Below, in pieces: positions 3,171-23,426 of a DNA stretch of 64,000 nt (positions are counted from its first letter, which is position 1; every line of letters begins with the position of its first letter). The stretch is from Halorussus vallis (GTDB lineage: Archaea; Halobacteriota; Halobacteria; Halobacteriales; Haladaptataceae), in contig NZ_CP100000.1 of NCBI RefSeq assembly GCF_024138165.1, positions 1,488,001 through 1,552,000 of the forward strand, given 5' to 3'. A model generated the notes under the pieces. It was not told the origin of the DNA. It made no database searches and saw nothing but the letters and a program-made list of their open reading frames with translations. Both the position numbers and the translations under genes were made by a program.

Positions 3171-3302
3171 CTTCTGTCTCCTCAAACCGTGTGACAAAAC
3201 ATTATAAAGTTTTTAACAGTGGGTAGACGTCCGTCAGCGATTTCGGGCTATCTGTACGAGGAATCGTATGTCGTTAGCATATGGTCCCTGTGCGGAGTCC
3301 GA

Positions 3303-3390
3303 CCTCTTGCAAAATTTCGCACATTGTTAGTCGGGTCTTCTGTTAGAGATGTATAGAGATTTCCGGATTTCACCTATTCAAGTGTAAAAC
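3303..3390 (+). repeat. Degenerate island repeat R1, copy 0 (5' block only)
   Basis: Weak copy of the dispersed island element. It shares the ACCTC-TTGCAAAATTTCGC opening and the TTTCC-G segment with copy C at 8214 but lacks the hairpin core. It sits between the small paralogues and the Prim-Pol block. Confidence 0.35.
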
Positions 3391-3424
3391 CCTCTAAGGA
3401 GGTCTGCTACGGACGAAAACGAGA

Positions 3425-3478
3425 TTCGGTGGACCGAACATTTACATACACGCATCTCTTCGGCGGAATATGCCGAAC
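3425..3478 (+). promoter_or_regulatory. Promoter with two inverted repeats over the 47-aa gene
   Basis: A TATA-like TTTACATA at 3441-3448 lies about 26 nt before the ATG at 3470, as expected for a leaderless transcript. It is flanked by two related inverted repeats: TTCGGT-GG-ACCGAA at 3425-3438, in the BRE position, and TTCGGC-7nt-GCCGAA at 3459-3477, spanning the start codon. The arrangement looks like paired operators, possibly for autoregulation. Confidence 0.5.
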
Positions 3479-3613
3479 AAATACGGCTATACTACGATAA
3501 ACGTCTATCCAGACGACCGGGATACAGCGAAGCGAGCAAAATACGGTGATGAGTCTTGGAGTGACTTTCTTAGACGGGCTGGAAAAGCTCTCGATTCGGA
3601 CGCTCCAGAATGA
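3470..3613 (+). CDS. 47-aa small protein, possibly a DNA-binding regulator
   Basis: A short gene starting MPNKYGYTTINVYPDD and continuing RDTAKRAKYGDESWSDFL before an acidic end. The single beta strand (TTINVYP) followed by two helices resembles small ribbon-helix-helix-like proteins that are frequent in haloarchaea. The start is supported by a TATA box about 26 nt upstream, and two related inverted repeats flank the promoter, which would suit a dimeric self-regulating repressor. It precedes the Prim-Pol gene in the same direction, so a copy-number or replication regulator is plausible. Function is inferred, not shown. Confidence 0.65.
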   Translation: MPNKYGYTTINVYPDDRDTAKRAKYGDESWSDFLRRAGKALDSDAPE

Positions 3614-3715
3614 TTTCCTCGAAAGAAAAGCAGCGGATCATTGGTTTCCTACGCCCAGAAATCCGCCTTGAATTACATGACGTGTCGATTAATGCTCGAA
3701 CCATATCCCAACATC

Positions 3716-4930
3716 ATGTCATCGCCAGATAACCTGTCGCCGGCGACAATCAATAACGCACCGCCGCCGCAATCGGTGAAGGACAACATACAGACGGTAT
3801 CCAAACGCTTAGCTGAAGCTGATTTAGGCGAATTTCGGTTTAATCCGCTCCAGTCTGGGAAAAAGGAGCCGATTTCCCATACCGTTTATAAACCAGGTGC
3901 TATCTCTGGGAACTACGGCGTGTATGCTGGAGACGGTTTAGTTCTCATCGATATTGATGACTATAAATCCGATGTTCAACGGCCAGCAGAGCTTGCAGAC
4001 CTTCCGATAACGTTCACTGCACAGTCACCTCATGGTGGGGAGCATCGGTATTATTCGGTCGAGAACCAGGTCCAGAATAAACAACTTCCATGGGGAGAGA
4101 TACGAGCTGAGAATCAGTATGTAGTCGGCCCTGGTTCAGAACTTGCGAGTTGTACAAAGGATAACCATGACTGTTCTGCCCCTGGTAATGGCCACTATCA
4201 GATTTTACGCGATCAACCCATTGCGACTGTCGACCGGGATGAACTTTTCCAGCTTTCTCCGAGTACTGACGATGCAAGTAAGGACCGAGATACAAGACAT
4301 ACGTTGGACGCCACGGAGACCACTGCTCATTCGGAGGCTGTGGAATTCAACGTTGAGCGGCGGTTGGAGAAGATGAAACGCTGTACGTATGGAAATAAAG
4401 TCAAGGCACTCTGGAAAGGTCGATATCGAGCTGCTGGCTTCAACGATAGGTCTCGTGCTGAAGCCTCTCTTGTCGCCTATCTTGGTTGGTGGATGCAGGG
4501 AAATCGAAAGATCGTGAAGCAGTTGATGGATCGAGCCTGCAAAGAGCATCCACAGGCCGATGTGAACGGATTGCGGAAGTGGCGTGAAGCTGGCGCATTA
4601 TATCAAAATCTCACCCTGGATTTCGTAAAACACGACTCCTACTATGAGCCACCTCAACGGTCACGTCCATTTGACGAACGGCCGGCTACAAGCCACGTGA
4701 CTCGTAAAAACTTCTATAACGCACTACTTGACCTCGGAATCGCTCGCATGGTCGAAATAACAGAGCATGAGTCGTTTGACCGAAGTGTGAGTGCAGCAAG
4801 GCGAGCCCGGAATTGGTATGAAGAGCAGGGAATCGTGAAGCGGATCAATGACCATCCGTACACGTACTACTATCTCGATGGTCTAGAAAGTCTCATAGAT
4901 GAAGAAATGAGAAAGCAATTAGGAATCTAG
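3716..4930 (+). CDS. Bifunctional DNA primase/polymerase (Prim-Pol)
   Basis: Archaeo-eukaryotic-type Prim-Pol of plasmids and viruses, which makes primers and extends DNA at an element's origin. The three signatures are present: the metal-binding DID in VLIDIDDY (about residues 79-81), the SxH motif in QSPHGGEHRYY (about 104-110), and the third region GEIRAENQYVVGPGS (about 127-141). The C-terminal 90 residues (NFYNALLDLGIA, YEEQGIVKRI) look like a winged helix. The ATG at 3716 is chosen over an in-frame upstream start because a TTAAT box lies about 26 nt before it and the upstream extension is not acidic. The gene marks this part of the island as an integrated replicon. No helicase domain is visible. 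Confidence 0.85.
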   Translation: MSSPDNLSPATINNAPPPQSVKDNIQTVSKRLAEADLGEFRFNPLQSGKKEPISHTVYKPGAISGNYGVYAGDGLVLIDIDDYKSDVQRPAELADLPITFTAQSPHGGEHRYYSVENQVQNKQLPWGEIRAENQYVVGPGSELASCTKDNHDCSAPGNGHYQILRDQPIATVDRDELFQLSPSTDDASKDRDTRHTLDATETTAHSEAVEFNVERRLEKMKRCTYGNKVKALWKGRYRAAGFNDRSRAEASLVAYLGWWMQGNRKIVKQLMDRACKEHPQADVNGLRKWREAGALYQNLTLDFVKHDSYYEPPQRSRPFDERPATSHVTRKNFYNALLDLGIARMVEITEHESFDRSVSAARRARNWYEEQGIVKRINDHPYTYYYLDGLESLIDEEMRKQLGI

Positions 4931-5109
4931 TCTAGTAGTTTTACAGTCTATTAGTTCGTTTGCTATTGGAAGGGGGATTGTGGATAATGGCGACAGTAAA
5001 GAGATTCTGTCCATACATTTCAGAGGATTCCAAGAGCGATTTATATTAACGAATACCACTCACCTTTAGTTCAGATATTCGCTAGCAACGCTCCAAACAG
5101 CCATCCAAA

Positions 5110-5290
5110 GTGACTCCATACATATCAGATGATACTGACAGCCGTGAGCCACCGCGTGCATCGATTTCTCCATAGCTAATAGCCCAATGACCCCCGCATT
5201 TCCAATAACTGACTCACTGTCCAGAGAGAGCGTGTCCCTATCGCTCTGCTGGTGGTCATCGCACCTCTCTTGCCCTTGTTTGCAAAACTC
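5110..5290 (+). repeat. Degenerate island repeat R1, copy A
   Basis: Noncoding element between the convergent Prim-Pol gene and the clamp-like gene. It shows the 5' block ACTGACAGCCGTGAGC at about 5134, ATCGATTT and TAGCCC in the middle, and a decayed hairpin core TCACTGTCCAGAGAGAGCG, with TTTGCAAAAC at the 3' end. The rest of the 4931-5390 gap is AT-rich with no gene seen; a 68-codon minus frame in it is treated as chance. Confidence 0.55.
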
Positions 5291-5390
5291 AAATCTCCCC
5301 CGGACAATGGATCTCGTTCAGATTCCGATCTGAACTCGACGGTCGTGTTCTGACCAGCGCCAGCTTCATGGAGAGAATCCATACCTCAAT

Positions 5391-6221
5391 TTAGAAATTT
5401 ACCCTCTGGTCTTCATGTGGACTTCGGATAATATGTCGATGGGTGACTCCTTCTAATGTTGTCTTTGTAATCACTAGTGGGCCGTGCCGAAGTGCAGTTT
5501 GAAGGGTGACTCGCCCACTAATATTTCGGACTACTTCTTTCAAACCCATAGTATACATGTTATCCACATTCGGTCCAATGACGGAATCCGCAGGTAAGCT
5601 GCCTTTTATGGAGTGACCTCTCTCATCATCTTCCAAATGAATGCACCATTCTTCCTGTTGCACAGTAACTGGGTATCCTGACTTCCCTATCTGGTCAACA
5701 ATCGACATCAGTTCCTCAATCTGATCAACTGTCGTCACAATCTCGACGGGAAGCGTTCGCGTACGCTCTTCGTTCAGAAATCGGTTTGACAAGTCGAATC
5801 GATCGATAATCATATTCTGAATTCGGTGAGGCGATACATCTAAGCTCTCAACTGCTCTCCCGATCGTCAAGTTACCTCGAATTTGAATCTGGGACGCAAC
5901 CTCCACCCCCGGTAAGAAACAAAGGTCGATAGGGTTCCGCCAATCTAGCCAAGCTAATTGTTCAATGATGGAGCTATCGATAAGCGCTCGTACTGGTTCG
6001 GCGCTATAGAGTTCGAATGAGTCGAAGTAGGAACTGTGATACGTGCAAAAAGACTGGACTGCTGTACCTCCCTCCGCAATCACGTGCATTCTATCGTCTT
6101 GGACTTCAAGATAGATCCTTTCGTGGTGGGGGTTTGATCCTTGAGCAAGTGCTGATTCCTCAAATAATCGTTTCAGGTCGATACCTCTCGAATGAATGGC
6201 TGCGGAATACGGTTGTGTCAT
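5391..6221 (-). CDS. Possible sliding-clamp (PCNA)-like protein, 276 aa
   Basis: Not firmly recognised. Length (276 against about 247 for haloarchaeal PCNA) and the order of elements suggest a clamp fold. The last 110 residues follow the PCNA second domain: LPVEIVTTVDQIEELMSIVD, a beta segment WCIHLEDD, a linker ending in MGLKEVVRNISG where PCNA has its YLKD-type helix, RVTLQTALRHGPLVI, and a final strand RHIIRSP where PCNA ends in YMLAPR. It sits between Prim-Pol and ParB-like genes, where a clamp would fit. No PIP-box partner is visible. It could be an unrelated two-domain beta protein; a structure prediction would decide. Confidence 0.45.
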   Translation of the reverse strand: MTQPYSAAIHSRGIDLKRLFEESALAQGSNPHHERIYLEVQDDRMHVIAEGGTAVQSFCTYHSSYFDSFELYSAEPVRALIDSSIIEQLAWLDWRNPIDLCFLPGVEVASQIQIRGNLTIGRAVESLDVSPHRIQNMIIDRFDLSNRFLNEERTRTLPVEIVTTVDQIEELMSIVDQIGKSGYPVTVQQEEWCIHLEDDERGHSIKGSLPADSVIGPNVDNMYTMGLKEVVRNISGRVTLQTALRHGPLVITKTTLEGVTHRHIIRSPHEDQRVNF

Positions 6222-6256
6222 GGGATATCCTGTGAAAATGGGAAATTAAAGCTATT

Positions 6257-7363
6257 TTATTGATACTTCTCTATTTGTTCCTGAGTTGCCTGACCAAAGT
6301 CGTTCTTCCTCTTTGGAATTTCATCCTCAAATAACCAGTAATCAACCAGATCTGCATGAACGCCAAGCTGAACGGCGATCATTTGAGGAGTCCGATTGTG
6401 CTCCCAGTACCACTCTTCTAACGTCGATTTATCTGGCTTTCGCTGTACCAACGAGTTCGGCTCAGCAGATGAGGAATCCGAGCAGCTAATTTCCCCATCA
6501 GATTCGAGGAAATAAGCGAAGACGAAGGCGTCCCCTTGCTCAGGATTTTTGAATTTCTTCTCATACTCTCCAAGTAGAGAGTCTAATAGCTGCTCCCAAT
6601 CTTTACTCCCAGGAAGCTTTGTTTGATCGTAAATAATTCGTCGCTGCCGGATGCTTGGATTAGCATCAGCCTTCTCAATAGTGTCCCATTCAACCGCATC
6701 TCCGAGTTTCTCGAGTTCTTCAATTCGCTTCAGTACTTTGTAAGCTCCATGGATACTTTGCTTGCCAGCATCGATGCGATCGAGTTCTTTCTTGAGCTTA
6801 TCGGATTTTTTATGAGCCTTCTCCCAGACTTTCTTCGCCTTCCGATAGGTTTCGCCGGATCCAATATCAGTTTCTTGTGCGACTTTCTCTCGTGTTCTTC
6901 CGTATTCGCTTGCGGCAAAATCTTGCCCAATGTCAGTCCGAGCCCCTTGCCGTTCCTTCGCCCGCTTTTTCTCGATTTCCTCCAACTTGAGAGCTTCCCT
7001 CATCCGCTCCTTGAATGTCTTGACCCGTTGCTTATTGTAATGAATTACAGCCGCCTTTTCATCAAGCGAGTCCAGATTCTGAACAGTGACGTCAATTTTA
7101 TCGATTCCAGTCTTGATCGCTGCATCAACCCGACGGTGGCCGCTAATAATGACGTTATTTGCGTTGATCGTAACCGGCTCCATGACGCCGTTTTCCTCGA
7201 TGCTTCTAACGAAGTCATCGGTAGGGGGTTCAGCGCTATAGATATCGTCATGGATTGGATGAGGATCCAATTGCTCGGGATCTCGCGTCTCAATCGAGGG
7301 CTGGGCTTGATTGTTCTTCGTCTGCGTCTTCTCTGTCTCGTTCGCATCAGTAGTTTTGCTCAT
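6257..7363 (-). CDS. ParB/RepB/Spo0J-type nuclease-domain protein
   Basis: The N-terminal ParB-like domain (about residues 30-125) carries the signature ISGHRRVDAA near residues 73-82 and begins LDPHPIHDD, as in partition proteins and their plasmid relatives. A charged coiled-coil region follows (MREALKLEEIEKKRAKE), then an HTH-like stretch (SEYGRTREKVAQETDIGSG) and a Ser/Asp-rich linker. The last 60 residues (TPQMIAVQLGVHADLVDYW) look like a second helix-turn-helix. An AGGAG sequence lies just upstream of the ATG. No ParA ATPase is in the window. Likely role: partition or regulation of the integrated replicon. Confidence 0.8.
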   Translation of the reverse strand: MSKTTDANETEKTQTKNNQAQPSIETRDPEQLDPHPIHDDIYSAEPPTDDFVRSIEENGVMEPVTINANNVIISGHRRVDAAIKTGIDKIDVTVQNLDSLDEKAAVIHYNKQRVKTFKERMREALKLEEIEKKRAKERQGARTDIGQDFAASEYGRTREKVAQETDIGSGETYRKAKKVWEKAHKKSDKLKKELDRIDAGKQSIHGAYKVLKRIEELEKLGDAVEWDTIEKADANPSIRQRRIIYDQTKLPGSKDWEQLLDSLLGEYEKKFKNPEQGDAFVFAYFLESDGEISCSDSSSAEPNSLVQRKPDKSTLEEWYWEHNRTPQMIAVQLGVHADLVDYWLFEDEIPKRKNDFGQATQEQIEKYQ

Positions 7364-7499
7364 GGTTATCTCCTAGTTTAGTCCGTTCTGAGTCGGCTGC
7401 GAGAGATATCTCTGATTGGATGAATCTCCGCCTCGGGGAGCTGCCAGTCGCTATTCTCCAACGGGCAGCCGTCAGATCGGGGTCGCGTGTTTTGGTTGC

Positions 7500-7599
7500 G
7501 ACCTATCAGATAATAGGTCACACACCACCTTAAGTGTAACGTCGTAATAGATATTGTAACGTTTGGAGTGGTAAGATCGGATAACCAGTATCCTTTTAG
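7500..7599. promoter_or_regulatory. Operator-like repeats and TATA box between divergent genes
   Basis: Between the ParB-like gene (minus) and the 179-aa gene (plus) lie an inverted repeat GACCTAT-6nt-ATAGGTC (7500-7519) and a direct repeat TGTAACGT at 7535-7542 and 7555-7562, exactly 20 bp apart, so on the same DNA face. A TTTTAG box at 7594-7599 is about 26 nt before the ATG at 7623. Candidate parS or repressor sites. Confidence 0.45.
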
Positions 7600-7622
7600 A
7601 TACGGCATATGCATTACCGGAT

Positions 7623-8162
7623 ATGGCTACAGATCCAGAACGTGATCGGGGAATTTTGAGTACCAAAGACAGGCAGTTCCTCCTAGATGAAGCTGCAATC
7701 GAATCAAAGAGTTCCGCAGAGCGCGTTGCACGATCCCGCATTCGCGACCGCATCTTGAACGCACTCCTCGACTTTTCGATTATCGCGGACGAACTCGAAG
7801 ACCGCGACAAGAAGAGGGTATTCGAGAACTTACCTCGGGACCTAGACCTCCGCCGCAGTATCGTGGCACTCCTCGGGTTCGTGTACCTCGGCGTGAAGGA
7901 GTGCGGAGAGGACTTTGGTGACCTCCTTGCCAAGGCTGTCGAGGAGGCGGAGAAAACCCGTGCAAGTGTCGACGATAGAAGAGCCGTCGAGGTTGACGTG
8001 ACGTTCGATGTCGAGACGAAGCTTGTCCTCGAATCGACAGCAGATAACTTGGAGAAATATTCAGAGAGAGAACTAGCAGAGCTCGTAGTGAATGATGAAC
8101 TCAGCGGCGATGAACTCTATCAAGAACTACAACGACGAAGAGCCGCGGATGCAGGAGAATAA
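7623..8162 (+). CDS. Haloarchaeal conserved 179-aa protein of unknown function
   Basis: The N-terminal half begins RGILSTKDRQFLLDEA and continues ARSRIRDRILNALLDFSII, a pattern I recall in many haloarchaeal proteins of plasmids and genomic islands with no assigned function. The C-terminal half is acidic, with DELYQELQRRR at the end suggesting a coiled helix. No catalytic motif or membrane segment is visible. The start is supported by a leaderless-type TATA box. It is divergent from the ParB-like gene, and the shared spacer holds operator-like repeats, so joint control is likely. Confidence 0.75.
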   Translation: MATDPERDRGILSTKDRQFLLDEAAIESKSSAERVARSRIRDRILNALLDFSIIADELEDRDKKRVFENLPRDLDLRRSIVALLGFVYLGVKECGEDFGDLLAKAVEEAEKTRASVDDRRAVEVDVTFDVETKLVLESTADNLEKYSERELAELVVNDELSGDELYQELQRRRAADAGE

Positions 8163-8213
8163 CCAGCACTGAGACGGGTTTGCGATGTGATCCCCGCACT
8201 GAAGTGAACCTTC

Positions 8214-8290
8214 GGCAAAGTTTTGCGCGACGTTACTGACAGCCGTGAACTGAAGCTAAGAAGCGGTTTCCCTGACTCCCTGATGAGTAA
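8214..8290 (+). repeat. Degenerate island repeat R1, copy C (5' part)
   Basis: It contains CGGCAAAGTTTTGCGC, then ACTGACAGCCGTGAAC and AAGCTAAGAAGCGGTTTCCC, matching copy B over about 75 bp. The hairpin core is absent. It lies between the 179-aa gene and the HhH gene. Confidence 0.55.
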
Positions 8291-8356
8291 ATCTTGGCTT
8301 TGGTGCTAGGTCTCAGCGGTCGTGCTGAATACCGCGTATCTTGCCGACGCTTTCGA

Positions 8357-8962
8357 TTATGCCTTCGCTTTATCGAATGCCCAAAGTGCCATATCGATTT
8401 CCCGTGGGGAGAGTCCCCTTTCCGCAGCGAGTTCCCGAATGTGATTTATATAATACTCATATGTCTCTGCCTTCGTGAGGTACGTTCGGAAGTGCTCTAA
8501 AAACTCAGCATATGTGGTGTATTCTTCAGGGGTTGCTATCTCGGGTTTCGCAGCTGCAAGCCCTCGAAAAGCACGATAGTCAATAATTGCGTATTCGGTC
8601 GGACGACTCACTGTGAGTACGGTCGAGGCAAGTGGAACCCCAACCCCCGAGAGTCGAGTTAAACTCTCAATTGCTTCGTTATCATCAGAAACCTGTAGGG
8701 CAACCCGGCTCCGTCGTTCTACCTCAGACGTTTCGTTCTGAGTTATATTTGAGTCGTTTCTCTTCCCCTGAAGCTTCCACTGGCTGATTTTCTGCAACTC
8801 CGTAACTGAGATTTCTCTGCGGGACTGAATCGCTGCTGATATTGAGCTGAATAGCGGATCGGCGTCTTTCCTCCAACGGCCAGATTCATCTAAGTACTCA
8901 ATCGGCTTGTCCTCCCACTGCTCCTCGAATTCGTTCACCCATTTTGGAAAATCAATTCCCAT
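8357..8962 (-). CDS. Helix-hairpin-helix (HhH) island protein, 201 aa
   Basis: The central segment LTRLSGVGVPLASTVLTV, followed by YAIIDYRAFRGLAA, is an HhH motif of the kind found in DNA-glycosylase-like proteins of restriction/defence islands; the C-terminus ends with PREIDMALWAFDK, also typical of that group. The strictly catalytic Lys/Asp pair of HhH-GPD glycosylases is not evident, so I infer DNA binding or an inactive glycosylase-like fold rather than repair activity. It stands alone between copies C and B of the island repeat. Start ATG chosen because the sequence upstream is AT-rich and noncoding. Confidence 0.7.
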   Translation of the reverse strand: MGIDFPKWVNEFEEQWEDKPIEYLDESGRWRKDADPLFSSISAAIQSRREISVTELQKISQWKLQGKRNDSNITQNETSEVERRSRVALQVSDDNEAIESLTRLSGVGVPLASTVLTVSRPTEYAIIDYRAFRGLAAAKPEIATPEEYTTYAEFLEHFRTYLTKAETYEYYINHIRELAAERGLSPREIDMALWAFDKAKA

Positions 8963-9099
8963 GAGATACCCTACTATTTACAATGACTAAGTGGCGGGGA
9001 TGTACTGAGTATAACCTCTATATTCAGCATGACCGCGGAAACCTATCACCGTGTGAGGGTTTCAACAAAGCTAAATCCGCCACATAGTTTCTCGCTTTC

Positions 9100-9285
9100 G
9101 GCAAATTTTTGCACAACGTGACTGGCGGCCGTGAACAAAGAGCTAAAATCGATTTTTCCTGCATCCACGATAGATAGCCCTCGGAGTTCCATCAACCGCC
9201 TCGCTGTCCACAGCGAGCGCGTCTCTTCCGCTCTGCTAACCGTCGACGTCTTGGGGTCAACCCAACTTGCAATTCTCTGATTCTG
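9100..9285 (+). repeat. Degenerate island repeat R1, copy B (best preserved)
   Basis: Order: GGCAAATTTTTGCAC, ACTGGCGGCCGTGAAC, ATCGATTTTTCC, TAGCCCTCGGAG, CATCAACCGC, then a perfect hairpin CTCGCTG-TCCA-CAGCGAG, and TCTCTTCCGCTCTGCT. It fills the 8963-9312 gap; no gene is seen there. Confidence 0.65.
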
Positions 9286-9312
9286 TTATGCGACCAATTG
9301 AATGGATGGCAC

Positions 9313-10584
9313 TTAGCTATCTTCCACCAGCGACCGAATCTTCTCGTTTACCATACCGTGTACTCGACCAGTATAGTCGTCAAAATCTTCAGCTACCGTC
9401 GGAATAGGAAATTCAACTAATTTAAGCGGATACTGTTCTACGACCGAGTACTGTGTCCCGATCTCTCCCCTTTGCTCAGGATAAATCAGTACTCCAGGAA
9501 TATCATGAGCAAATTGGTACGAGACCATCTGATAAAAGTCCGAATTTGGAGGCCGACCTAGCTTCCATTTTGCATCACCCACAAGCAGTATTTGCTGATC
9601 GGAGTTTCGAATAACGATATCAGGCCGAATAGAGATTGTATGTTTTCCGTCCGTAACTAGATTACAAGTTGTCACTTGAGACGCCACCTTCCATCCGTCA
9701 CGTTCTTCAATCGCCTCAGAAACTCCCCGTTCCACAGCCCGTTCGAATATCTGATTCATATCGATGAGGAGCGCGAACGAGCTTTGCTCCCCGGTCAGGA
9801 ACTCTCGAACGTAGATACTCCGAAGGACAAGCTTCGTGAGACGAAGCAAATCAGCATAATATTCGTTGAGACGTGTAAGTTCAACGGACTCTAGTGCTGC
9901 AGGCTGTATCGGTGTCAAAGTAACTCGTTGTCGAAGGAGATGCCGATGCTTGAGCAGAGAGCGTTTCAGAGTTTGATCGCGAACAAATCGAGTTAAGATA
10001 GATGTCGCAAAGAGAACGGATTGATTCGGGAGAGTATCATAGGTTAGTTCCTCATACGAGCATTCAAACTGCGTCGGAGCAACACCCTGTTTCTGGATCT
10101 GCTTCTGTACATTTAGCCGTCCCCGAAGGTGCTCTTCGTTGGCTTCGACTCGGCGATAATCTCGGTGTAGTCCCTGCCGGATGACATTCTCGAGTTCAGC
10201 CTCATAGAGAGCTGCAAGCGCCTCGATAAACGTCCGCCCTGCAGAGATGGACGTCTCGCGCTCAATCGTCACGGACTCGACGCCATGGGCATACCGCAAG
10301 AAATGGAGTAAGTTTGTTCGTCCCGCTTTCGGGCGAATTTGTATTGTCGGACCATCTGGAAGCGAGACTATCCCTACGTATTGTGTCGCCTGAAGTACGG
10401 CATCTCCGTTTCGATCAAATGAAACGCTCAGACGCTCTCCATCGCTGTTGACTTCGGATCGAAGCATTCGAAGCGCTGAATCACTCAGGTCAAGCGGTTC
10501 CGTTTCCTCGTACTCTCGCAGAGAAATATCGACACTCTCCCCATCTTCCGCGTCGAGCAAGGGAAACGAAGCAGACTGAGCCAT
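9313..10584 (-). CDS. mcrC: McrC-type 5-methylcytosine restriction subunit
   Basis: McrC supplies the nuclease of the modification-dependent McrBC system and docks on the McrB GTPase ring. The N-terminal beta region includes YVGIVSLPDGPTIQIRPKAG, and LLHFLRYAHG follows, both typical of the family. The C-terminal PD-(D/E)xK centre is visible as RPDIVI, then the catalytic DAKWK. The ATG at 10584, 7 nt after the mcrB stop, is chosen over an in-frame start 66 nt earlier inside mcrB because it gives a normal McrC N-terminus. At 423 aa the length is usual for the family. Same operon as mcrB. Confidence 0.88.
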   Translation of the reverse strand: MAQSASFPLLDAEDGESVDISLREYEETEPLDLSDSALRMLRSEVNSDGERLSVSFDRNGDAVLQATQYVGIVSLPDGPTIQIRPKAGRTNLLHFLRYAHGVESVTIERETSISAGRTFIEALAALYEAELENVIRQGLHRDYRRVEANEEHLRGRLNVQKQIQKQGVAPTQFECSYEELTYDTLPNQSVLFATSILTRFVRDQTLKRSLLKHRHLLRQRVTLTPIQPAALESVELTRLNEYYADLLRLTKLVLRSIYVREFLTGEQSSFALLIDMNQIFERAVERGVSEAIEERDGWKVASQVTTCNLVTDGKHTISIRPDIVIRNSDQQILLVGDAKWKLGRPPNSDFYQMVSYQFAHDIPGVLIYPEQRGEIGTQYSVVEQYPLKLVEFPIPTVAEDFDDYTGRVHGMVNEKIRSLVEDS

Positions 10585-10591
10585 TGATCTA

Positions 10592-13501
10592 CTATTCCTC
10601 TCTGTTCGCGGCTGTGAGGGTCCCCGACTGAACCTCTGTTCGGATATCAACTAGGCGCTTATTGTCGAACTCAGGATGCCGCCAATAGTCCGGGCCGGTC
10701 ACCTCACCGGTGTGTTCTGAAGCCTGTTCGAGGATCGCCTGAGCCAACCCTGAGAATGAATACTCTTCGCCGTTGAGCAACCACCGGACGCCGTTACTCT
10801 GACCCGTTTTCCCCTTGATCTCACACCGCCAGAACGCTTCTGACTGATCGTAGGGCCGGTCAGCATCCGCGGGTACTTTCTCTTCATCAAAGACCAGCTC
10901 ATCGCCTGCCTGGAGTATGTTCTCCTCCAATAGAAGATCCAGCGTATAGACTATGTCTGCACCCTCATCAGTGTCGCCGTTGACCTCCGGCTCTGCTAAA
11001 CTAATATCGACAAAGCTTGCAAGTGCCCGTCGGAGGTCATCCCGCGTGAAGTCCGCAATTTCTTCGGTTTCCCAGTGGAACAACCGTCCCCCGCCCGCCT
11101 GGAAGAGTTCGTCTCGTATTCGTTCAAACTGCCCGAAGTAGTACTCCTCGAGAAGCGGGAGAATCTCGTATTTCCACGCATCGACGATGTCGGCCGCTTC
11201 GTCGAAGTTCATCAGGTATGAATGCCCGATCTGCTTTCCCTTGCCTAAATCAGGGGTAGCGACGATAGTTTCGTTGAGTTCTCGAGCTGCTAAGATCGAG
11301 AGAGCCACCAAGCTCCGATATGGATCCGAACTGGTTCGCGCCACATCATGAATCTCATCTAGGCCCTCGAAGCCATGGTGATCAATCAAGACAGAGTAGT
11401 TTGGCGGGAACGCTAAAAACCGGAATCGCCGTCGAAGGGCCGCATCAACCAATGCAATCGAGCGGTCTGCCGTATTCATAGTGCCGATGACGTAGAGGTT
11501 CGGGGGCACCGTGAACGATTTCCGGGAGTGAGCGAGCGTGATTTCTACCTCGTTGGGTTGATCGAGGCGCTTGTCGCTTTCGAGCAGCGTGATGGTCTCC
11601 CCGAATATCTGTGCGAGGTTCCCTCGGTTGATCTCGTCGACAATTAAGACGAAACGCCGTGCTTCATCGAGGTCGTCATTCTGCTTGGCATGTTGGTATG
11701 CGGTTTCGGCACGCCTACAGATCCGCTTGAACACACCATCCTTAATCCGATACTCAACCGCTCCATCGTCAGCTTCAGCGGTCAATCCCTCAATGAAGTC
11801 CTCGTACGAGAACGAGGGATGGAAAGTGACCGTTTCGAGCTGCTCTGTCGTCGGCGTGTACTCCGACTGCTGGTTAAGCCACCAGCGGGCGAACTGGCGA
11901 GCAGTGTACGTTTTCCCGGTTCCCGGCGGTCCGTAGAAGACAAGTTGTTGAGCCTGCTTCAATTGACGTTCGATCGTATCCGTTTCAGCCGGCTGTTGAT
12001 CCGGGGGCGTGAGTTCATCGCTGCCGTCTCCTTTGTGCCGGCCCTGTAGTAGTGCCCCGAACTTCACGTGGTTCATGTTCGGGTTGATGCCACTCTCGCT
12101 CTGAAGATCACGGAGCAAGGCGACGAACAGTACTTGCCCCTTATCTAGGCTCGATTTTTGAATCGTTGCAGACCCGATTGTCTCTGCTAACTCTTCGAGT
12201 CTACGCGTATTGTCCCTGTAGACCTGGATGATCTGTTCGCACTTGACTGCATCAGGGGCGTCAACAATGCCTCCGATCAGGTCACTCCGACGAAGCGCGT
12301 CGGTCCAATCGTGAACTATAGTCTCAGCTATCTTCTCACCTAACCAGTTTTCAGCTCCGGATGTCTGGCTGACACGTGCTTTGATGTCTTTCGTCGCATC
12401 AGTGATTCCCTCGTAAGGGTCGGCAGGTACGATAGGACCGCCACCGTCGAACTTGAATCCGCGTTCCTCTAGCAGTTCGGCTAGATACGGCGATTCTTCA
12501 ACGAGGATGTCAACGAGCTCATCTGGGCACTGAGTAAAGTAGTGCCCCTGGTTAAGCGACAACCGCTTGTCGTAGAATATCTTCCTACTTTGCTCGCGGA
12601 TCTCGCGTAATCGTTCCTGGTACTCAGGCTTTTCGAGGAGGTCATCATAGACGTGGATGTGTGGTTCGATACCCTGATAGTCAGTTAGCCATCGCAGGTA
12701 TCCTCCCTGCTCCTGTTGCTTTTCAGTCCAACGATCATCTGGTGGCCCTTCGAAATCCTCGTGCAATTCCGAATCAATTACTGAAATGCCGACGATTTGG
12801 TGCTGTTCCTGCAGTAGATGGAGAACAATATCACCCACCTCTGCCTCACGCACTGCCTCATAGCGCTTTCTCCCTCCCTTGTCCCTACTAGGGGACATAA
12901 TCGCTCGTCCTAACTTGTATTGGCCTTCTTGTTTGTACGCTCGACCGCTAATTTGCGTCTTCTCGACCCAAACCGTTGGATTAGCTCGGTGGGCGTTTAG
13001 ATAGCCTTCAATACTATCGTACTCGTCCTCGATCGCAGTGAGCCCCTTTTCATTGAGAGGGATGAAACTGATCGGATAGTTCTGATCGTACCCCGCATAC
13101 GAGTGGAGATCGGTACTATCGATCTCAATTTTGAACGGTGCATCTAAGAAAATCAGATACTTATATGGATCGGTCGCGTCATCACTTCCGGCTGTCTGTC
13201 GAGCGTAATCAGGCCAAATCTCCTTCGCCAACTCAAGGTTCTGTGTCGTCCCAATGACCTGCGCGGCATATCGATACTGAAGATCTCCCATATAGAACAG
13301 TAAATAATCTCCCTGTTGAATATTAGACCATGTTCCCTTTTTCCCTGAAGACACCCCCCAGATTCGAAGATCACTACCGAAGTCTTGATCGAGATACTCG
13401 CTGTATCGTTCCTTCGAAACAGGGGTAAGGACGGATTCGTCGAAGTGTGTCTGTGGGCTTTCGCTGGCACATGGTGCGAGAAAGAGTTGTGAACGGGCCA
13501 T
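10592..13501 (-). CDS. mcrB: McrB-type GTPase with two EVE-like domains and a RAMA-like C-terminus
   Basis: AAA+ motor of a McrBC-type system. Core: Walker A GPPGTGKT (524-531), Walker B LIVDEIN (619-625) and the McrB signature MNTADRS (675-681). N-terminal readers: residues about 1-165 with WGVSSGKKGTWSNIQQGDYL look like an EVE/YTH-type pocket, and residues about 190-340 (GRAIMSPSRDKGGRKRYEAV, then EVGDIVLHL) like a second EVE domain. After the AAA+ part, residues about 850-955 (LLLEENILQAGDELV, RWLLNGEEYSFSGLAQAIL, GPDYW) resemble a RAMA domain, associated with modified-DNA recognition. Two kinds of reader on one McrB would suit detection of modified phage DNA. The RAMA assignment is by pattern only. 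Confidence 0.88.
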   Translation of the reverse strand: MARSQLFLAPCASESPQTHFDESVLTPVSKERYSEYLDQDFGSDLRIWGVSSGKKGTWSNIQQGDYLLFYMGDLQYRYAAQVIGTTQNLELAKEIWPDYARQTAGSDDATDPYKYLIFLDAPFKIEIDSTDLHSYAGYDQNYPISFIPLNEKGLTAIEDEYDSIEGYLNAHRANPTVWVEKTQISGRAYKQEGQYKLGRAIMSPSRDKGGRKRYEAVREAEVGDIVLHLLQEQHQIVGISVIDSELHEDFEGPPDDRWTEKQQEQGGYLRWLTDYQGIEPHIHVYDDLLEKPEYQERLREIREQSRKIFYDKRLSLNQGHYFTQCPDELVDILVEESPYLAELLEERGFKFDGGGPIVPADPYEGITDATKDIKARVSQTSGAENWLGEKIAETIVHDWTDALRRSDLIGGIVDAPDAVKCEQIIQVYRDNTRRLEELAETIGSATIQKSSLDKGQVLFVALLRDLQSESGINPNMNHVKFGALLQGRHKGDGSDELTPPDQQPAETDTIERQLKQAQQLVFYGPPGTGKTYTARQFARWWLNQQSEYTPTTEQLETVTFHPSFSYEDFIEGLTAEADDGAVEYRIKDGVFKRICRRAETAYQHAKQNDDLDEARRFVLIVDEINRGNLAQIFGETITLLESDKRLDQPNEVEITLAHSRKSFTVPPNLYVIGTMNTADRSIALVDAALRRRFRFLAFPPNYSVLIDHHGFEGLDEIHDVARTSSDPYRSLVALSILAARELNETIVATPDLGKGKQIGHSYLMNFDEAADIVDAWKYEILPLLEEYYFGQFERIRDELFQAGGGRLFHWETEEIADFTRDDLRRALASFVDISLAEPEVNGDTDEGADIVYTLDLLLEENILQAGDELVFDEEKVPADADRPYDQSEAFWRCEIKGKTGQSNGVRWLLNGEEYSFSGLAQAILEQASEHTGEVTGPDYWRHPEFDNKRLVDIRTEVQSGTLTAANREE

Positions 13502-13547
13502 TGGTATTTGGATTATATACGAGAAACTAATTACTTGCTAAATAAAT

Positions 13548-13730
13548 CCATTTGCGGAATTCACCTGGCAGCCATAGAACGAGTATGCGAATCCATTTTC
13601 CGTGTTCCCGATAAATTGCTCTCGGAGAGACATCAATCGCTTCTCTGTCCGCAGAGAGCGTTTCTCTTCCGCTTTGCTGACCACCAATGCCTCGGTCCCA
13701 ACCTTCATCTGCAAATAGCTACTTTATACC
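13548..13730 (+). repeat. Degenerate island repeat R1, copy D
   Basis: Full-length but diverged: ACCTGGCAGCCATAGAAC, AATCCATTTTCC, GCTCTCGGAGAG, CATCAATCGC, hairpin TCTCTG-TCCG-CAGAGA, TCTCTTCCGCTTTGCT, and CTGCAAATAG at the end. The hairpin arms differ from copy B yet still pair. It lies in the 13502-13998 gap, where a 115-codon plus frame is rejected as a gene. Confidence 0.6.
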
Positions 13731-13998
13731 AATTGAGGAATCTATACTCTATCGAGCCAATGTGGATGCCACCTATTTGGACACCGTGCGATTCGCCTTG
13801 CTGGTCGCTGTCTGAAGCAGTCATCGTAATCTCCGGCCAAAGCCATTGCTGCTGAACGAGTAACAACAATAGGACCTATTCAGAGAGACGCCAGACACTA
13901 ATATCAAAATTCTTGCCTATATTCGCGCTTCGAGTTTTGCCTGATTACGTCTGTAATATGAACATATTTGTAGCTCTGATTGAGTGATTACAGTCAAC

Positions 13999-14946: not shown

Positions 14947-16823
14947 TGACCGAAATAGAAGAGCACCTCTCTCAGCTTTCCCCACTGTGGGAAGGCCAAG
15001 AGATTGCGGAAGGACCTCGGATAATCGATGTCGATAGCCCTGTCTCCGATTTTCCTAAGAATGCGCTTAGTGGAATCCTCCAGTTAGCGCACGAAGAGGG
15101 GGCATATTTCGATGACTTTGAAGTGACATTCCACACGGATAGAACCGGAGAGCAGCCGATTATCCAATCAGGAGGGAGCCTCCGGGTACACAACTCTGGT
15201 TTCGACACCCTCCAAAGTGCGTACGATACCGAAGACGTAGATATTCAAGACTGGCGTCGAGTCGTCGGTGACATCCTCCGTGATGACGAAGCTGGAAGAT
15301 TAGCTGATTTTCTGCTTGAGTGGTCCGGGACAGCCTCGATATCCCTATACGTAGATTGTATCGTAGACAAGTCAGAGGTTGGTGACCGGCTCGAAGCTGA
15401 GTTAGATGGTTTACCCTCCACCTCAGTATCCTTCTGGACAGAGGAGGAGAGGCTTCGAAGTTGGCTGGATCAGCATGGCTCAGATTACGCAACAGTCGCC
15501 GATGAGTTCTTTGAAGAACGAAATCTCCCGGCCTTTGTATTCTACGAGGAAATCGAACCAGAGTACGAATCACTGCTTCAGTTCCACTCCGTTAGCTTCT
15601 TGCTCAACGCGGAACCGGAAAAGCTCGATTTCGACGTGAGCCAATATCGGACGCTCATGGACCGAGACCGTGACATGCTCCAAGCCGGGCCCGAACTGTC
15701 GGTAGTGTCTCCCTCGCTCTTCAGCACACCCAAGGCGAGAGATTTGTTCGCGTCTGTATTCGTATACAGCGTCTTCGCCGGAGTCGCAAAGCGAGTGAGA
15801 TTGACTGACGACGTCCTGGAACTCGAAATCAAAACACGACGCAAGACCATTAGTGACGAAATCGACGGGGAGACATTCACCGATGCCGTTCAAGGATATA
15901 CAGTAGACGAACTAACGTCTCTTTACGAGTTCTATGAGTCGTTTGTAGAGAAGGGCACGCGAAACACGTATCGGGACTTCTGGCACCGTAGCATCGTCGA
16001 AGAGTGTGATTCATTCGAGGACCTGCCCCGGAAGACGGCGCAGATTCGTGAGTTCTACACGTTCTTGGAAGAGGAAGCTATCGAGAAGAATTTCGATGAC
16101 CTCAACGATGCCATCCAAGACGCTCATGTGTTTACTGCTGATGTTACGAGTACTGTCTCGGAGACGACACGGAGCCTGACCTCAGAGATTCAGAAAGTGG
16201 TGCTGGCGCTCCTCGGTGCAGTATTCGCTAATCTCTTTCTCGTAGTCCGGTGGTCCAACGTGGATATGGTGCTCCCATTCTCGATATTCGTTATCTCCGG
16301 CGTCCTCCTGTTCTACTTCCCAACAATCCAAACTCGAATCGACGAACTGGACGGCCTGATAAGCGAGAGCAATGATGACTTCGAGGTCTACTCCGAGACG
16401 ATTCAGGATTTCTCGGGTCATCTATTCGACTTCAGTCGATTCGATGACCGACGAGGGAGCTACGTCAACTACGCCGAGAAGCGTCGAAAGTGGGCTGTCG
16501 AGAAGCTACAACTAGCCTTCTGGTTACTCATCGTCGTTTGGGGGGGATTAGCGATAATCTCGATTCTCGGCTACCCGCGGTCTTCAGGACAATTTCTTAT
16601 CGCAGCAACCTCAGTAGTGATTACAGGAATAATCTGGTTCAGACACAGGAATGCGGACTACTACCCCGAAACAACCGAGATGCGAATTATTGGAACCGTC
16701 CTCTCACCAGCAATCAGTCTTGCAATACTCATCTTGATTGTGACTGGAATTCGCTTGTGCATCGAACCTCTAACTGTTAGCGAAATCACATCCGGCCAAA
16801 TTTTACAGGACGTCCTACCGTGA
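14946..16823 (+). CDS. Large soluble domain plus five-TM membrane protein of an unnamed system
   Basis: 625 aa. Residues 1 to about 410 are soluble and acidic with no known motif; residues about 380-415 form a helical lead-in. Hydrophobic segments follow at about 416-434, 441-459, 521-541, 548-565 and 581-604. The loop between the second and third (about 460-520) is charged and probably cytoplasmic. There is no signal peptide, so the N-terminal domain should face the cytoplasm. The pairing with a coupled soluble partner, between McrBC and a Type I restriction operon, suggests an anti-phage role in which the membrane domain is the effector. That is inference; no family was recognised. Confidence 0.72.
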   Translation: MTEIEEHLSQLSPLWEGQEIAEGPRIIDVDSPVSDFPKNALSGILQLAHEEGAYFDDFEVTFHTDRTGEQPIIQSGGSLRVHNSGFDTLQSAYDTEDVDIQDWRRVVGDILRDDEAGRLADFLLEWSGTASISLYVDCIVDKSEVGDRLEAELDGLPSTSVSFWTEEERLRSWLDQHGSDYATVADEFFEERNLPAFVFYEEIEPEYESLLQFHSVSFLLNAEPEKLDFDVSQYRTLMDRDRDMLQAGPELSVVSPSLFSTPKARDLFASVFVYSVFAGVAKRVRLTDDVLELEIKTRRKTISDEIDGETFTDAVQGYTVDELTSLYEFYESFVEKGTRNTYRDFWHRSIVEECDSFEDLPRKTAQIREFYTFLEEEAIEKNFDDLNDAIQDAHVFTADVTSTVSETTRSLTSEIQKVVLALLGAVFANLFLVVRWSNVDMVLPFSIFVISGVLLFYFPTIQTRIDELDGLISESNDDFEVYSETIQDFSGHLFDFSRFDDRRGSYVNYAEKRRKWAVEKLQLAFWLLIVVWGGLAIISILGYPRSSGQFLIAATSVVITGIIWFRHRNADYYPETTEMRIIGTVLSPAISLAILILIVTGIRLCIEPLTVSEITSGQILQDVLP

Positions 16824-16989
16824 GTAACATCACCGCAGCGACTCAGCGTACGGTTTCCAATTTTCTGACCGAGTCCACCATCCAGAGGACGACTGAGATT
16901 CATACTCGGGAGCAATGCATTAGCGTTTGAGTCCCGTTACGCTCCGTACAGTCTGAAACCAACAAAGGCAGGTGTCAGAGACTCACCGG

Positions 16990-17532
16990 TTAGAGAAAAT
17001 CAGAGACTGTCTCCGTCAAGTCCGCGAAAATTTCCTCGGCTGATTCGATCCTCCGACATCCCGTGATAACGACCTTACCCGTAGCGAAGAGCAACACAAC
17101 ACCTTCAGCGCCCTCAGGGCGATAAATTAGACCGGGGAACTGCTCCGGTTCGTACTCAGTCTTCTCGAGACCCAACCCGATGGCGAGTGCATTCAGATTG
17201 AGGTTTTGGTCTAGTTCTCCAGTACAGACGTAATTCTGAATAGCGAACCACTCGTCCTCCGGTTCCTCGATGACGTCCATATCGGAGAAGAGATTCAAGA
17301 ATCGCTCTCGGAGTAAGTACGATTCTTCCTCGGAGTCTGCGCCGGTGATGATGAATTTCCCCGTTCTGTAGACCGTTATTAGCGGCGCGTCTTCCGCGAA
17401 TCGGAGGTACATCCCCGGATACTTGTCCGGGTCGTAGCGAGCGACTGGCTCACCAATATCGTCAGCGAGGCATTTTAAATCGAGTTCGACATCTAAAGCA
17501 CCCGATGCGACGATATTTACAATCTCTAACAT
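16990..17532 (-). CDS. tbp: Divergent TATA-box-binding protein (TBP) encoded in the island
   Basis: Two TBP repeats are clear: residues about 1-85 (MLEIVNIVASGALDVELDL, KYPGMYLRF, YRTGKFIITGA) and about 90-180 (IQNYVCTGELDQNLNLNALA, QFPGLIYRP, FATGKVVITG). It recognises promoters together with a TFB and RNA polymerase. The start MLEIVNIVAS is preferred because TBPs begin close to this strand; an in-frame start 60 nt earlier would add a basic tail. The first repeat has diverged from the usual FPGLVYR and IFRSGK, so it is probably an alternative TBP rather than the housekeeping copy. It is divergent from hsdM, with a 295-bp spacer. Confidence 0.88.
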   Translation of the reverse strand: MLEIVNIVASGALDVELDLKCLADDIGEPVARYDPDKYPGMYLRFAEDAPLITVYRTGKFIITGADSEEESYLLRERFLNLFSDMDVIEEPEDEWFAIQNYVCTGELDQNLNLNALAIGLGLEKTEYEPEQFPGLIYRPEGAEGVVLLFATGKVVITGCRRIESAEEIFADLTETVSDFL

Positions 17533-17796
17533 CCTTTCCTCCGATTCACAGCTAAAGCTCGTTTCAATTCTGCTCAACCCACGTCTAAACACTTGCTGGT
17601 TTCCGTCCTCAGTCTCAGAACTACTGACCGAACAACGTGGGATTGGGGTTGATCTTTGGAATAGGAAAAAGCATTTGAATCACGTTAGGCTTCCCGCCGC
17701 CGAAGACCAGTTAGTGAGGTATGGATAAAATGGTAGTCTTACTGTACGAAATACGAATGTGATTTGTGGGGTCGCCGTCTATCCATTTAACACAAT

Positions 17797-17804
17797 TCTT
17801 ATTT
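17797..17804 (+). promoter_or_regulatory. TATA box of the hsdMSR operon
   Basis: TTCTTATT is centred about 27 nt before the hsdM ATG, consistent with a leaderless transcript beginning at or next to the start codon. Confidence 0.5.
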
Positions 17805-17827
17805 GGGTCTAATCTGCAGTATTCGGT

Positions 17828-19408
17828 ATGGCTATTTCGGGAGATTCCAACGGTGAACTTGAAAAGCGGCTCTGGAAGACCGCTGAAAAACTTCGAGGAC
17901 CTGTTGACCCCTCCGAATACAAGGATTTCGCACTCGGGCTCTTGTTCCTCAAGAGTATGTCTGACTCCTTCAAGGCCCGACGACAAGAACTTGAAGAGAA
18001 AACCCGCAACTCCGACTCCCGTTATTATACCGAAGACGAGCAGGAACGTAAGTACATTCTCTCAGATAAGGACGAGTACAAACGAGAAAACGTATTCTAC
18101 ATTCCTGAAGAGGCACGCTGGCAGTACTTCGTCAACAATGCTACTGACCCGCAGATCGGGAAGAAAATCGACGATGCGATGCGGGCAATTGAAGATGAAA
18201 ACCCGCGTCTCAAAGGAATTCTACCTAAAGGATACTCTCGCTCTTCTCTCTCCGACAATTCTTCTGACGCGTTAGAAGGCTTGATCAACCTCTTCGCAGA
18301 TCTGGATATGGAAGCTGAGAACGGGGACAAAGATAAGGATGTTTTCGGCCGTGTCTACGAGTATTTCATTAAGCAGTTCGCGATAGAAGGCGGACAGAAG
18401 GGAGGCGAATTCTATACCCCGAAAAGCATCGTCGAATTGATGGTCGAGATCTTAGAGCCGTATGAAGGCCGGATATTCGACCCATTCAGCGGTTCAGGCG
18501 GAATGTTCGTACAGAGCCAGAAATTCATAGAAAGCCATGGAGGAGACACTGACAAGATCTCTATCTACGGCCAGGAAATCAAGGAGAGTACGCTGCAGAT
18601 CTCTAAAATGAATCTCTATCTTCGAGGTCTTGACGGAAATATCAAACAGGGAGATAGCATTCTTAATGACCAACACAAGGGTCTTGAAGCGGACTACATC
18701 CTGACTAATCCCCCGTTCAACATGAGTGAATGGGGGAGAAGCTCTGTCTCTGATGATGATCCACGATTTATATATGGGTTGCCTCCAGCCACAAAACAGG
18801 GTGGAAACTTTGCTTTTGTACAACATATGTTGTCACATCTAAATAATCAAGGAATGGTTGGTACTGTTATGGCAAATGGATCATTATCTATACAAGGGGA
18901 TGAAGGTGAGATCCGCAAGGAAATAATAAAAAATGATTTGGTAGATGTCATAGTAACCCTCCCAATCAAATTATTCTACACAACTGACATTCCGGTATGT
19001 TTGTGGTTCTTGTCAAATGATAAAGAAAATGACAAGTGCCGGAATCGAAAGGGCGAAACCTTATTCATTGACGCAACTGACATGTATGATGAAATGGGTG
19101 ATTCTCGTCACGCTCTCTCAAACCGCCATATCAAATTAATTGTGTCAAAGGTCAGAGAGTTTCGTGGACAAACAGATCAGGAGTTTTCAGACGTGACTGG
19201 ATTTGCATATAAAGCCACCACTGAGGAAATTTCAGAAAACAGTTTCATTCTAACACCAAGTCGATATGTTGGAATTGACCTGGATGATAATACTGTTCCT
19301 TTTGAAGCAAAAATGGAGAGCTTGAGCTCAAATTTGAGAGAGGAGATGCAGAAGTCGAACGAATTAGAAGAGCAAATTAAGAAGAATATCGAGGAGGTTG
19401 GATTCTAA
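17828..19408 (+). CDS. hsdM: Type I restriction-modification methyltransferase subunit HsdM
   Basis: N6-adenine methyltransferase of the Type I complex. The N-terminal HsdM helical domain (ELEKRLWKTAEKLRG onward) is followed by the Rossmann core: SAM motif DPFSGSGG (about residues 218-225), the GGEFYTP lead-in (about 192-198) and catalytic NPPF (294-297). 526 aa is a normal length. The last residues overlap hsdS as TAATG. Base composition shifts inside the gene: about 47-48 % G+C around 18421-18600 but 35 % by hand count over 18841-18960, and low again near the end and in hsdS, suggesting a recombination mosaic. Confidence 0.93.
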   Translation: MAISGDSNGELEKRLWKTAEKLRGPVDPSEYKDFALGLLFLKSMSDSFKARRQELEEKTRNSDSRYYTEDEQERKYILSDKDEYKRENVFYIPEEARWQYFVNNATDPQIGKKIDDAMRAIEDENPRLKGILPKGYSRSSLSDNSSDALEGLINLFADLDMEAENGDKDKDVFGRVYEYFIKQFAIEGGQKGGEFYTPKSIVELMVEILEPYEGRIFDPFSGSGGMFVQSQKFIESHGGDTDKISIYGQEIKESTLQISKMNLYLRGLDGNIKQGDSILNDQHKGLEADYILTNPPFNMSEWGRSSVSDDDPRFIYGLPPATKQGGNFAFVQHMLSHLNNQGMVGTVMANGSLSIQGDEGEIRKEIIKNDLVDVIVTLPIKLFYTTDIPVCLWFLSNDKENDKCRNRKGETLFIDATDMYDEMGDSRHALSNRHIKLIVSKVREFRGQTDQEFSDVTGFAYKATTEEISENSFILTPSRYVGIDLDDNTVPFEAKMESLSSNLREEMQKSNELEEQIKKNIEEVGF

Positions 19409-20082
19409 TGACCAACCAATCGAATATTAGCGAATACGACAATTCCAAAGACCAAATAGAATCATATAAAGATCTGACCTCGTCGCCGCGCGAAGTAGAG
19501 GAGAATGTACCCCTTAAGGATGTGTGTGATTTTATGATGCGAGGAAAACAGCCTACATACGTTGATGAAAGCGATATCCGAGCATTAAATCAAAAAGCCA
19601 TCCGTGAGAATGTCATAGAAGAAAAGCACCTTAAATACCACGATCCTGAAGTCGACATGTTCGAAAATCGATTCATACGTGAGGGAGACATTGTGATCAA
19701 TTCTACAGGCAAGGGTACTGTTGGTAGGACACACTACTTTCGCAAAACACCGGAGAACATGTTCGCAGATTCTCACGTGACCATTCTTCGAACAGACGAA
19801 AGTAAGGTCGACTCAGAATATCTCTATTACCTATTGAGCACTCCTCGTTACAAGGAAATATTGGTAAACGGGGCAACCGGTAGTACTGGGCAGGTGGAAT
19901 TAAATAAGGGAACTTTGCAAGAGATTGAGATCACTTATCCGGATATCGAAACACAGAGAGAGATTGTCTCTGTCCTTCGACCAATGGGGCTACAAATAGA
20001 GAATAATAGGAGTATGAATAAAACTCTTCTTGAGATGATGAGCACAATCTTTGGACACCATCAGTCTGATCTGAGTTCATGA
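19408..20082 (+). CDS. hsdS: Half-size specificity subunit HsdS (single target-recognition domain)
   Basis: 224 aa, about half the usual length. One target-recognition domain is visible (VPLKDVCDFMMRG, then REGDIVINSTGKGTVGRTHY, FADSHVTILR, YYLLSTPRYKEI, GSTGQVELNKGTLQEI), followed by a coiled helix (QREIVSVLRPMGLQIENN). A single-domain S subunit must dimerise, which would predict a palindromic target rather than the usual asymmetric one. It overlaps hsdM and is 56 nt before hsdR. G+C is low, as in the 3' part of hsdM. No second domain or frameshifted remnant is seen in the hsdS-hsdR spacer. Confidence 0.88.
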   Translation: MTNQSNISEYDNSKDQIESYKDLTSSPREVEENVPLKDVCDFMMRGKQPTYVDESDIRALNQKAIRENVIEEKHLKYHDPEVDMFENRFIREGDIVINSTGKGTVGRTHYFRKTPENMFADSHVTILRTDESKVDSEYLYYLLSTPRYKEILVNGATGSTGQVELNKGTLQEIEITYPDIETQREIVSVLRPMGLQIENNRSMNKTLLEMMSTIFGHHQSDLSS

Positions 20083-20138
20083 ACTTGAGGTAAGAAACAT
20101 GTGTATGGATTCCAAAAGGTGTCTTGGGAAGATCTGAA

Positions 20139-23129: not shown

Positions 23130-23426
23130 CCGGATTTTGGCTACCCTTTGAAAACCGGCGATGACCAGTCAAATGATCGGTAAGAGGTTGAGTTTTGCAC
23201 TTACGTTGTGCGATGCTGCTCGTTCCTATTGTTCTACGATGAACGATCGAAGTGAAGGGTCGGTAATAGTTCGGCCTCGGCACTCATAGGGTTCGTCACC
23301 ACCGGATGCCGAGTCCGGTTCGGAGCGAGCGCCTCGTCATCGGCCACCGCCACCTACCGCGTCCGGCGAAAAGACCCTTACTCCTTCCGGTCGAACTCGT
23401 CTTCCGAATCTCGACCCCAGTTCGCC
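23130..23426. other. Right edge of the low-G+C island
   Basis: No gene seen. Composition rises sharply here, from about 50 % in hsdR to about 70 % in the glycosyltransferase gene. No tRNA, integrase or obvious direct-repeat end was found, so the exact junction is not set. Confidence 0.5.

Follow-up and report, generated by a model that had tools for sequence, protein, structure and literature searches.

HGTV-1 carries a repeated inverted-repeat motif upstream of genes, for which a role in shuffling has been proposed (PMC3950731), and T4-type phages have promoter-early stem-loops, which that paper mentions in citing Arbiol et al. 2010. The element that we describe here, called R1, is like these motifs, as that paper describes them, in being a short non-coding repeat with a hairpin at the borders of exchangeable genes, and like HGTV-1 it is haloarchaeal. 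Unlike them, R1 is not consistently upstream of genes, and it has only four copies, which are diverged to 50–64% identity and have no match in a phage collection. The palindrome-associated transposable elements (PATEs) of Haloquadratum (PMC3119063) are, as R1 is, non-coding haloarchaeal elements without terminal inverted repeats and, as in R1 copies C and D, with a palindrome near one end; R1 differs from them in that it is not interspersed in the genome, is unlike the IS605-type ends found here and has junctions that are no simple insertions. Tandem accretion of integrative elements with repeated att ends also leaves blocks separated by directly repeated non-coding sequences of ~200 bp, and the left end of the island studied here shows a repeat of this sort that is not R1, but R1 resembles no att end of the island and no integrase is tied to it. 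Finally, R1 resembles the integron attC arrays in being a repeat of one orientation per cassette, whereas it has no attC core sites and does not travel with cassettes.

Ideas on the swapping of defence genes in archaeal islands are mostly inferences from the genes that the islands contain. Here, comparison with orthologous islands places some of the junctions with almost base-pair accuracy and shows a non-coding repeat at them. Should R1 turn out to form the terminus of inserting units, it would speak for a way of building archaeal defence islands that does without the island's own integrase; should it not, the case is a caution against taking every repeat at cassette borders for a site of cassette recombination.

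The window, a stretch of 64,000 nucleotides, is part of the 5.05 Mb genome of Halorussus vallis (G000, contig C1:1488001-1552000). A G+C-poor island (G+C ~0.49 versus 0.68) covers its bases 1 to ~23250, and the left boundary of the island lies ~15 kb before the window start, where coordinates are given as negative numbers. The features needed below are as follows.

−3975 to −3004: tyrosine integrase of the island, 3–4 kb left of the window start
5107–5310, + strand: R1-B, full length, between PrimPol (ends at 4930) and the clamp-like 276-aa gene (− strand, ends at 5391)
8211–8295, + strand: R1-C, 5′ part only (model positions 3–86), an independent model match of 20.4 bits
8321–9024, no strand given: HhH-gene block, 93% identical in genome G017, where R1 is on neither side of it
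9005–9072, + strand: R0, a separate intergenic element of ~55–60 bp, present in dozens of haloarchaeal genomes and 24 plasmid records
9097–9301, + strand: R1-D, full length, its right end meeting the McrBC block at 9294
9293–9301 and again 13728–13736, + strand: ACCAATTGA, at the right ends of R1-D and R1-E
9313–10650, − strand: McrC
10592–13501, − strand: McrB; the McrC and McrB pair (9313–13501) matches Pfam McrBC (1.8e-56) and AAA_5 (1.4e-17)
13546–13736, + strand: R1-E, full length, its right end being the breakpoint of a truncated membrane gene
13733–13830 (approximate end), − strand: what is left of the 5′ part of a gene for a small membrane protein (MTDSDSD..) that seven orthologous islands have intact
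23273–23345, − strand: sR-tMet C/D RNA (Rfam match)

The whole island of ~38 kb (window −14990 to 23420; L317 plus window 23180–23420) resembles an integrative element beside the sR-tMet C/D RNA. A 15-bp core, TCGGCCTCGGCACTC, is found at its left end and beside this RNA at its right end, and the inner flanks of the two cores carry TATTACCG / CGGTAATA arms. When R1 was compared with attL, attR and the region upstream of the integrase, the scores of 19–27 were those of the background, and no R1–att pair reached 30. The tyrosine integrase of the island appears to use sites other than R1, namely the TCGGCCTCGGCACTC core. An earlier note on this DNA had seen no recombinase, which is right within the window but not for the island, to which the integrase just left of the window belongs.

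Three full copies of R1 (B, D and E) and one part-copy (C) are present in the window, all on the + strand. Copies were aligned locally in pairs and each pair was tested against 300 dinucleotide shuffles, none of which scored as high as D–E (119; shuffle maximum 31), B–D (74; 34), C–D (71; 29), B–E (44; 33) or B–C (32; 29). The aligned identity is 64% for D–E, 54% for D–B and 50% for E–B, with better conserved cores. B, D and E were made into a sequence model, in which their own scores are high by construction; in the window it recovered these three copies and the first ~84 element positions in C, and nothing else. The copies lie in four of the five intergenic gaps longer than 100 bp between 4930 and 13984; B and C are both between convergent genes, and the left ends of B, C and D are ragged, with 25–100 bp of unassigned sequence ahead of each. 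The earlier note had counted five copies, two of them partial, with a full length of about 180 bp, always in the same orientation and placed between gene blocks. Orientation and placement were confirmed, as were the copies at 5110, 8214 (partial), 9100 and 13548, but the full copies measure ~190–205 bp and the sequence at 3303 had to be dropped. This supposed copy A scored 16–26 against all the others, values equalled by 18–291 of the 300 shuffles, and its sole resemblance to the R1 copies is the GCAAAATTTCGC palindrome.

Among the genomes examined, this island alone has R1. Only B, C, D and E scored well with the model in the 5.05 Mb host genome. No convincing copy was found in ~390 genomes (392) of the order or in 170 of one family; the scans over 40 genomes used stricter filters that lose weak matches, and a diverged copy could have escaped them. 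R1 matched nothing in Rfam or in the collections of plasmid and phage DNA. Weak model matches elsewhere (16–21 bits) were discounted since a search of hundreds of genomes will produce such scores, and those inspected lie within or across reading frames; their local alignments do score above shuffles, but these sequences had been selected as the best out of billions of bases. Scans of genome contigs and viral contigs with broad two-block patterns were swamped by chance matches, stricter R1 patterns matched no viral contig, and an exact 17-mer matched two viral contigs.

A DNA search with 3200–13990 and a search at the protein level, with the 179-aa protein as query, identified islands of the same kind in seven genomes (G002, G016, G018, G022, G195, G229 and G290). 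The small membrane gene is present in all seven, and the island integrase is common to six of them at 85–92% protein identity; in G022 it was not seen within the 20 kb compared. A convincing R1 is lacking in all seven genomes. The order in G002 is integrase, PrimPol, ParB-like 368-aa protein, 179-aa protein, membrane gene, 320 and 625, and R1, the 276-aa gene, HhH and McrBC are all missing from it. The window shares this frame and has in addition R1-B with the 276-aa gene in the stretch from PrimPol to the 368-aa gene, and R1-C, HhH, R0, R1-D, McrBC and R1-E between the 179-aa and membrane genes; on the PrimPol side the homology with G002 stops at ~5008. Some differences between the islands come without R1, because the two acetyltransferase-like genes that G002 has between its 368-aa and 179-aa genes are missing from the window, and no R1 is found there. 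The integrase and the membrane gene are also common to G018, G016, G229 and G290, in the last three of which the 179-aa gene is directly left of the membrane gene, while G195 shares the integrase, the membrane gene and McrBC with the window.

These comparisons place two of the R1 right ends. In the relatives the membrane gene continues to the left of 13733, and in the window this place is occupied by R1-E. The McrBC block is homologous to G022 (84%) over 9294–12982, so that its edge falls inside the last bases of R1-D, and the match with G195 (75%) starts at 9315, close to the same end. The right ends of D and E therefore agree within ~10 bp with independently mapped breakpoints. Of the four right ends these are the only two that can be set against breakpoints, and R1-C lacks its right end; moreover, chance alone will often bring an intergenic element close to a breakpoint. 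Within these limits R1 marks novel junctions, as the earlier note had expected of it: it lies at junctions where this island and its orthologues differ, and the right ends of two copies are at breakpoints. The two ACCAATTGA copies bracket McrBC together with R1-E. Since CCAATTGA is native to the downstream flank of McrC in G022 and G195, and the membrane gene has TTGA natively, the right end of R1 abuts TTGA in both D and E; the equivalent in R1-B is TGGA. On the left of R1-E stands McrBC in place of the remainder of the cut membrane gene, so R1-E did not insert alone, and the simplest reading of this junction would be a unit made up of McrBC and R1-E. An empty site with cleanly joined flanks was not found, the R1-E junction being joined to McrBC on the left. 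What looked like a second repeat to the right of R1-E (13733–13914) proved to be the 5′ end of the conserved membrane gene.

We examined R1 for the marks of known classes of elements. Its hairpin pairs at seven of seven positions in D and E, with one double change, and at five of seven in B, so the statement in the earlier note that the arms of B and D differ and still pair holds only in part. The covariation amounts to this one double change among only three sequences, and 141 of 500 shuffles were as good. A second helix, GAGCG..CGCTC, can be formed in B, D and E but has no both-sided change, and the + strand fold energies are near those of shuffled sequence. Conserved peptides in several frames made a protein-coding R1 tempting; in three pairwise comparisons in six frames, however, no reading frame did consistently better than a random placement of those substitutions, so that none shows coding constraint, and two peptide readings searched against plasmids gave nothing notable. 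No terminal inverted repeats were found, as the reverse-complement self scores of D (30) and E (26) fit internal hairpins and other pairs scored 17–22. The GCAAATTTTTGC palindrome (GCAAA..TTTGC), near the left end, is limited to C and D, and no right-end palindrome is shared. The ends of the nine TnpB and two Y1 transposase loci (IS605-type) of the host genome bear no resemblance to R1. A pair of the attC core GTTRRRY and the inverse core RYYYAAC is in no copy; R1-D has one isolated attC-type site (inverse core on one strand, core read on the other) and B, C and E have none.

The earlier note had likened R1 to attC or MITE sites, and neither likeness is supported. A MITE-like element is not what the absence of terminal inverted repeats points to, and the copies are not interspersed in the host or in other genomes. 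As the recombination site of an integron-like cassette system, R1 would fit with its one orientation, one copy per block border and hairpin in D and E, yet it has no core/inverse-core pair and no covariation support, and the integrase of the island has distinct att sites. Moreover, a cassette site should travel with its cassette, and other genomes with these genes have no R1 beside them: HhH is found elsewhere without it, and there is no R1 beside the McrBC genes of G022 and G195. R1 is thus not a general attC-like site, and we regard this explanation as very improbable. One possible interpretation, which we favour tentatively and with somewhat less than even confidence, is that R1 is the right-terminal segment, or border scar, of units inserted in series into an integrative element. 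It is based on the absence of R1 from the orthologous islands, the position of the D and E right ends at synteny breakpoints, the ACCAATTGA copies at both of these ends and the lack of a coding frame. Small gene units would enter the integrative element successively and in a single orientation, each consisting of a gene block with R1 at its right end: PrimPol to R1-B, the 276-, 368- and 179-aa genes to R1-C, HhH and R0 to R1-D, and McrBC to R1-E. Every unit would arrive together with its own R1, the right end of which would be a defined terminus, abutting TTGA or, in B, TGGA; as the att sites differ, the inserting enzyme would be one other than the island's own integrase. With 50–64% overall identity, the copies would by now be too diverged to act as substrates of homologous recombination, and they are probably relics. 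What counts against this reading is that HhH in G017 and McrBC in G022 and G195 are without R1, so that no R1-bearing unit has been seen outside the island. The ragged left ends, the missing right end of R1-C, the restriction of the breakpoint comparison to two right ends and the failure to find a clean empty site count against it too. A bolder form, in which R1 would be the conserved end left by an archaeal insertion process not described so far, either one-ended or site-specific, which takes up neighbouring genes whatever their orientation and stacks them one way, with the same right terminus at each step, seems to us improbable.

Several insertions of an independently moving non-autonomous element, PATE-like with IS200/IS605-type ends, at TTGA-type targets might also have produced the copies, and their position at block borders would then only reflect that both lie in intergenic gaps. 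The lack of terminal inverted repeats, the left-end palindrome in C and D, the TTGA at the D and E right ends, the abundance of such elements in Haloquadratum (PMC3119063) and the PATE-sized R0 that adjoins R1-D are all in line with this; nevertheless, R1 is limited to 8.6 kb of one island with no convincing copy in the rest of this genome or in others, its copies share no near-terminal palindrome at the right end and bear no likeness to the tnpA/tnpB element ends of the host, and R1-E, with McrBC and not the remaining membrane gene on its left, is no simple insertion. We consider it unlikely. The overall identity of only 50–64% between copies speaks against R1 as a shared homology patch for block exchange by homologous recombination, in the manner of the T4-type promoter-early stem-loops or the HGTV-1 motif. 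The single orientation, the swapped-block borders, the hairpin in D and E, the halovirus homologues of some island genes and the proposed shuffling role of the HGTV-1 repeats (PMC3950731) favour such a patch. However, no R1-bearing donor replicon was found among the plasmids, phages, viral contigs and genomes searched, the covariation is at shuffle level, and with B and C between convergent genes R1 is not consistently upstream of genes and is no promoter cassette; this origin, too, is rather doubtful. It is less likely still that an old intergenic segment, regulatory or RNA-coding, was multiplied by segmental duplication in the island and that the blocks came later by unrelated routes. The confinement of strongly diverged copies to this island and the exchange of the HhH block without R1 agree with this, but not the D and E right ends at breakpoints, nor the lack of a common gene context, of an Rfam match and of fold energies beyond those of shuffled sequence on the + strand.

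The N-terminal ~172 residues of McrB (12982–13501) are not shared by the G022 and G195 proteins, the remainder of which is 80–90% identical, and this may reflect a domain swap. The HhH protein (8357–8962) is 39% identical to a protein of the pleolipoviruses HHPV3/4, and the 276-aa protein (5391–6221) is ~25% identical to a tailed-halovirus protein that is labelled PCNA in some records. R0 has in a relative the palindrome GCTGAATAC..GTATTCAGC, and in size it is reminiscent of the 52-bp terminal-only PATEs of Haloquadratum (PMC3119063).

Other repeats and genes of the island were seen as well. A second non-coding direct repeat, of ~185 bp, is present at L317:5057-5430 and L317:7417-7478 (window −14943 to −14570 and −12583 to −12522), as two tandem left-end copies of attL type and a partial third past an OLD/TOPRIM-type gene, which suggests stacked integrations. 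A 727-bp direct repeat, 84% identical, is found at window −16536 to −15811 and −6391 to −5665; one of the genes that it covers is outside the island and the other is within it, and both match the same place in several orthologous islands. A TATA-binding protein gene (16990–17592, − strand) lies inside the defence island and adjoins a type I restriction system.
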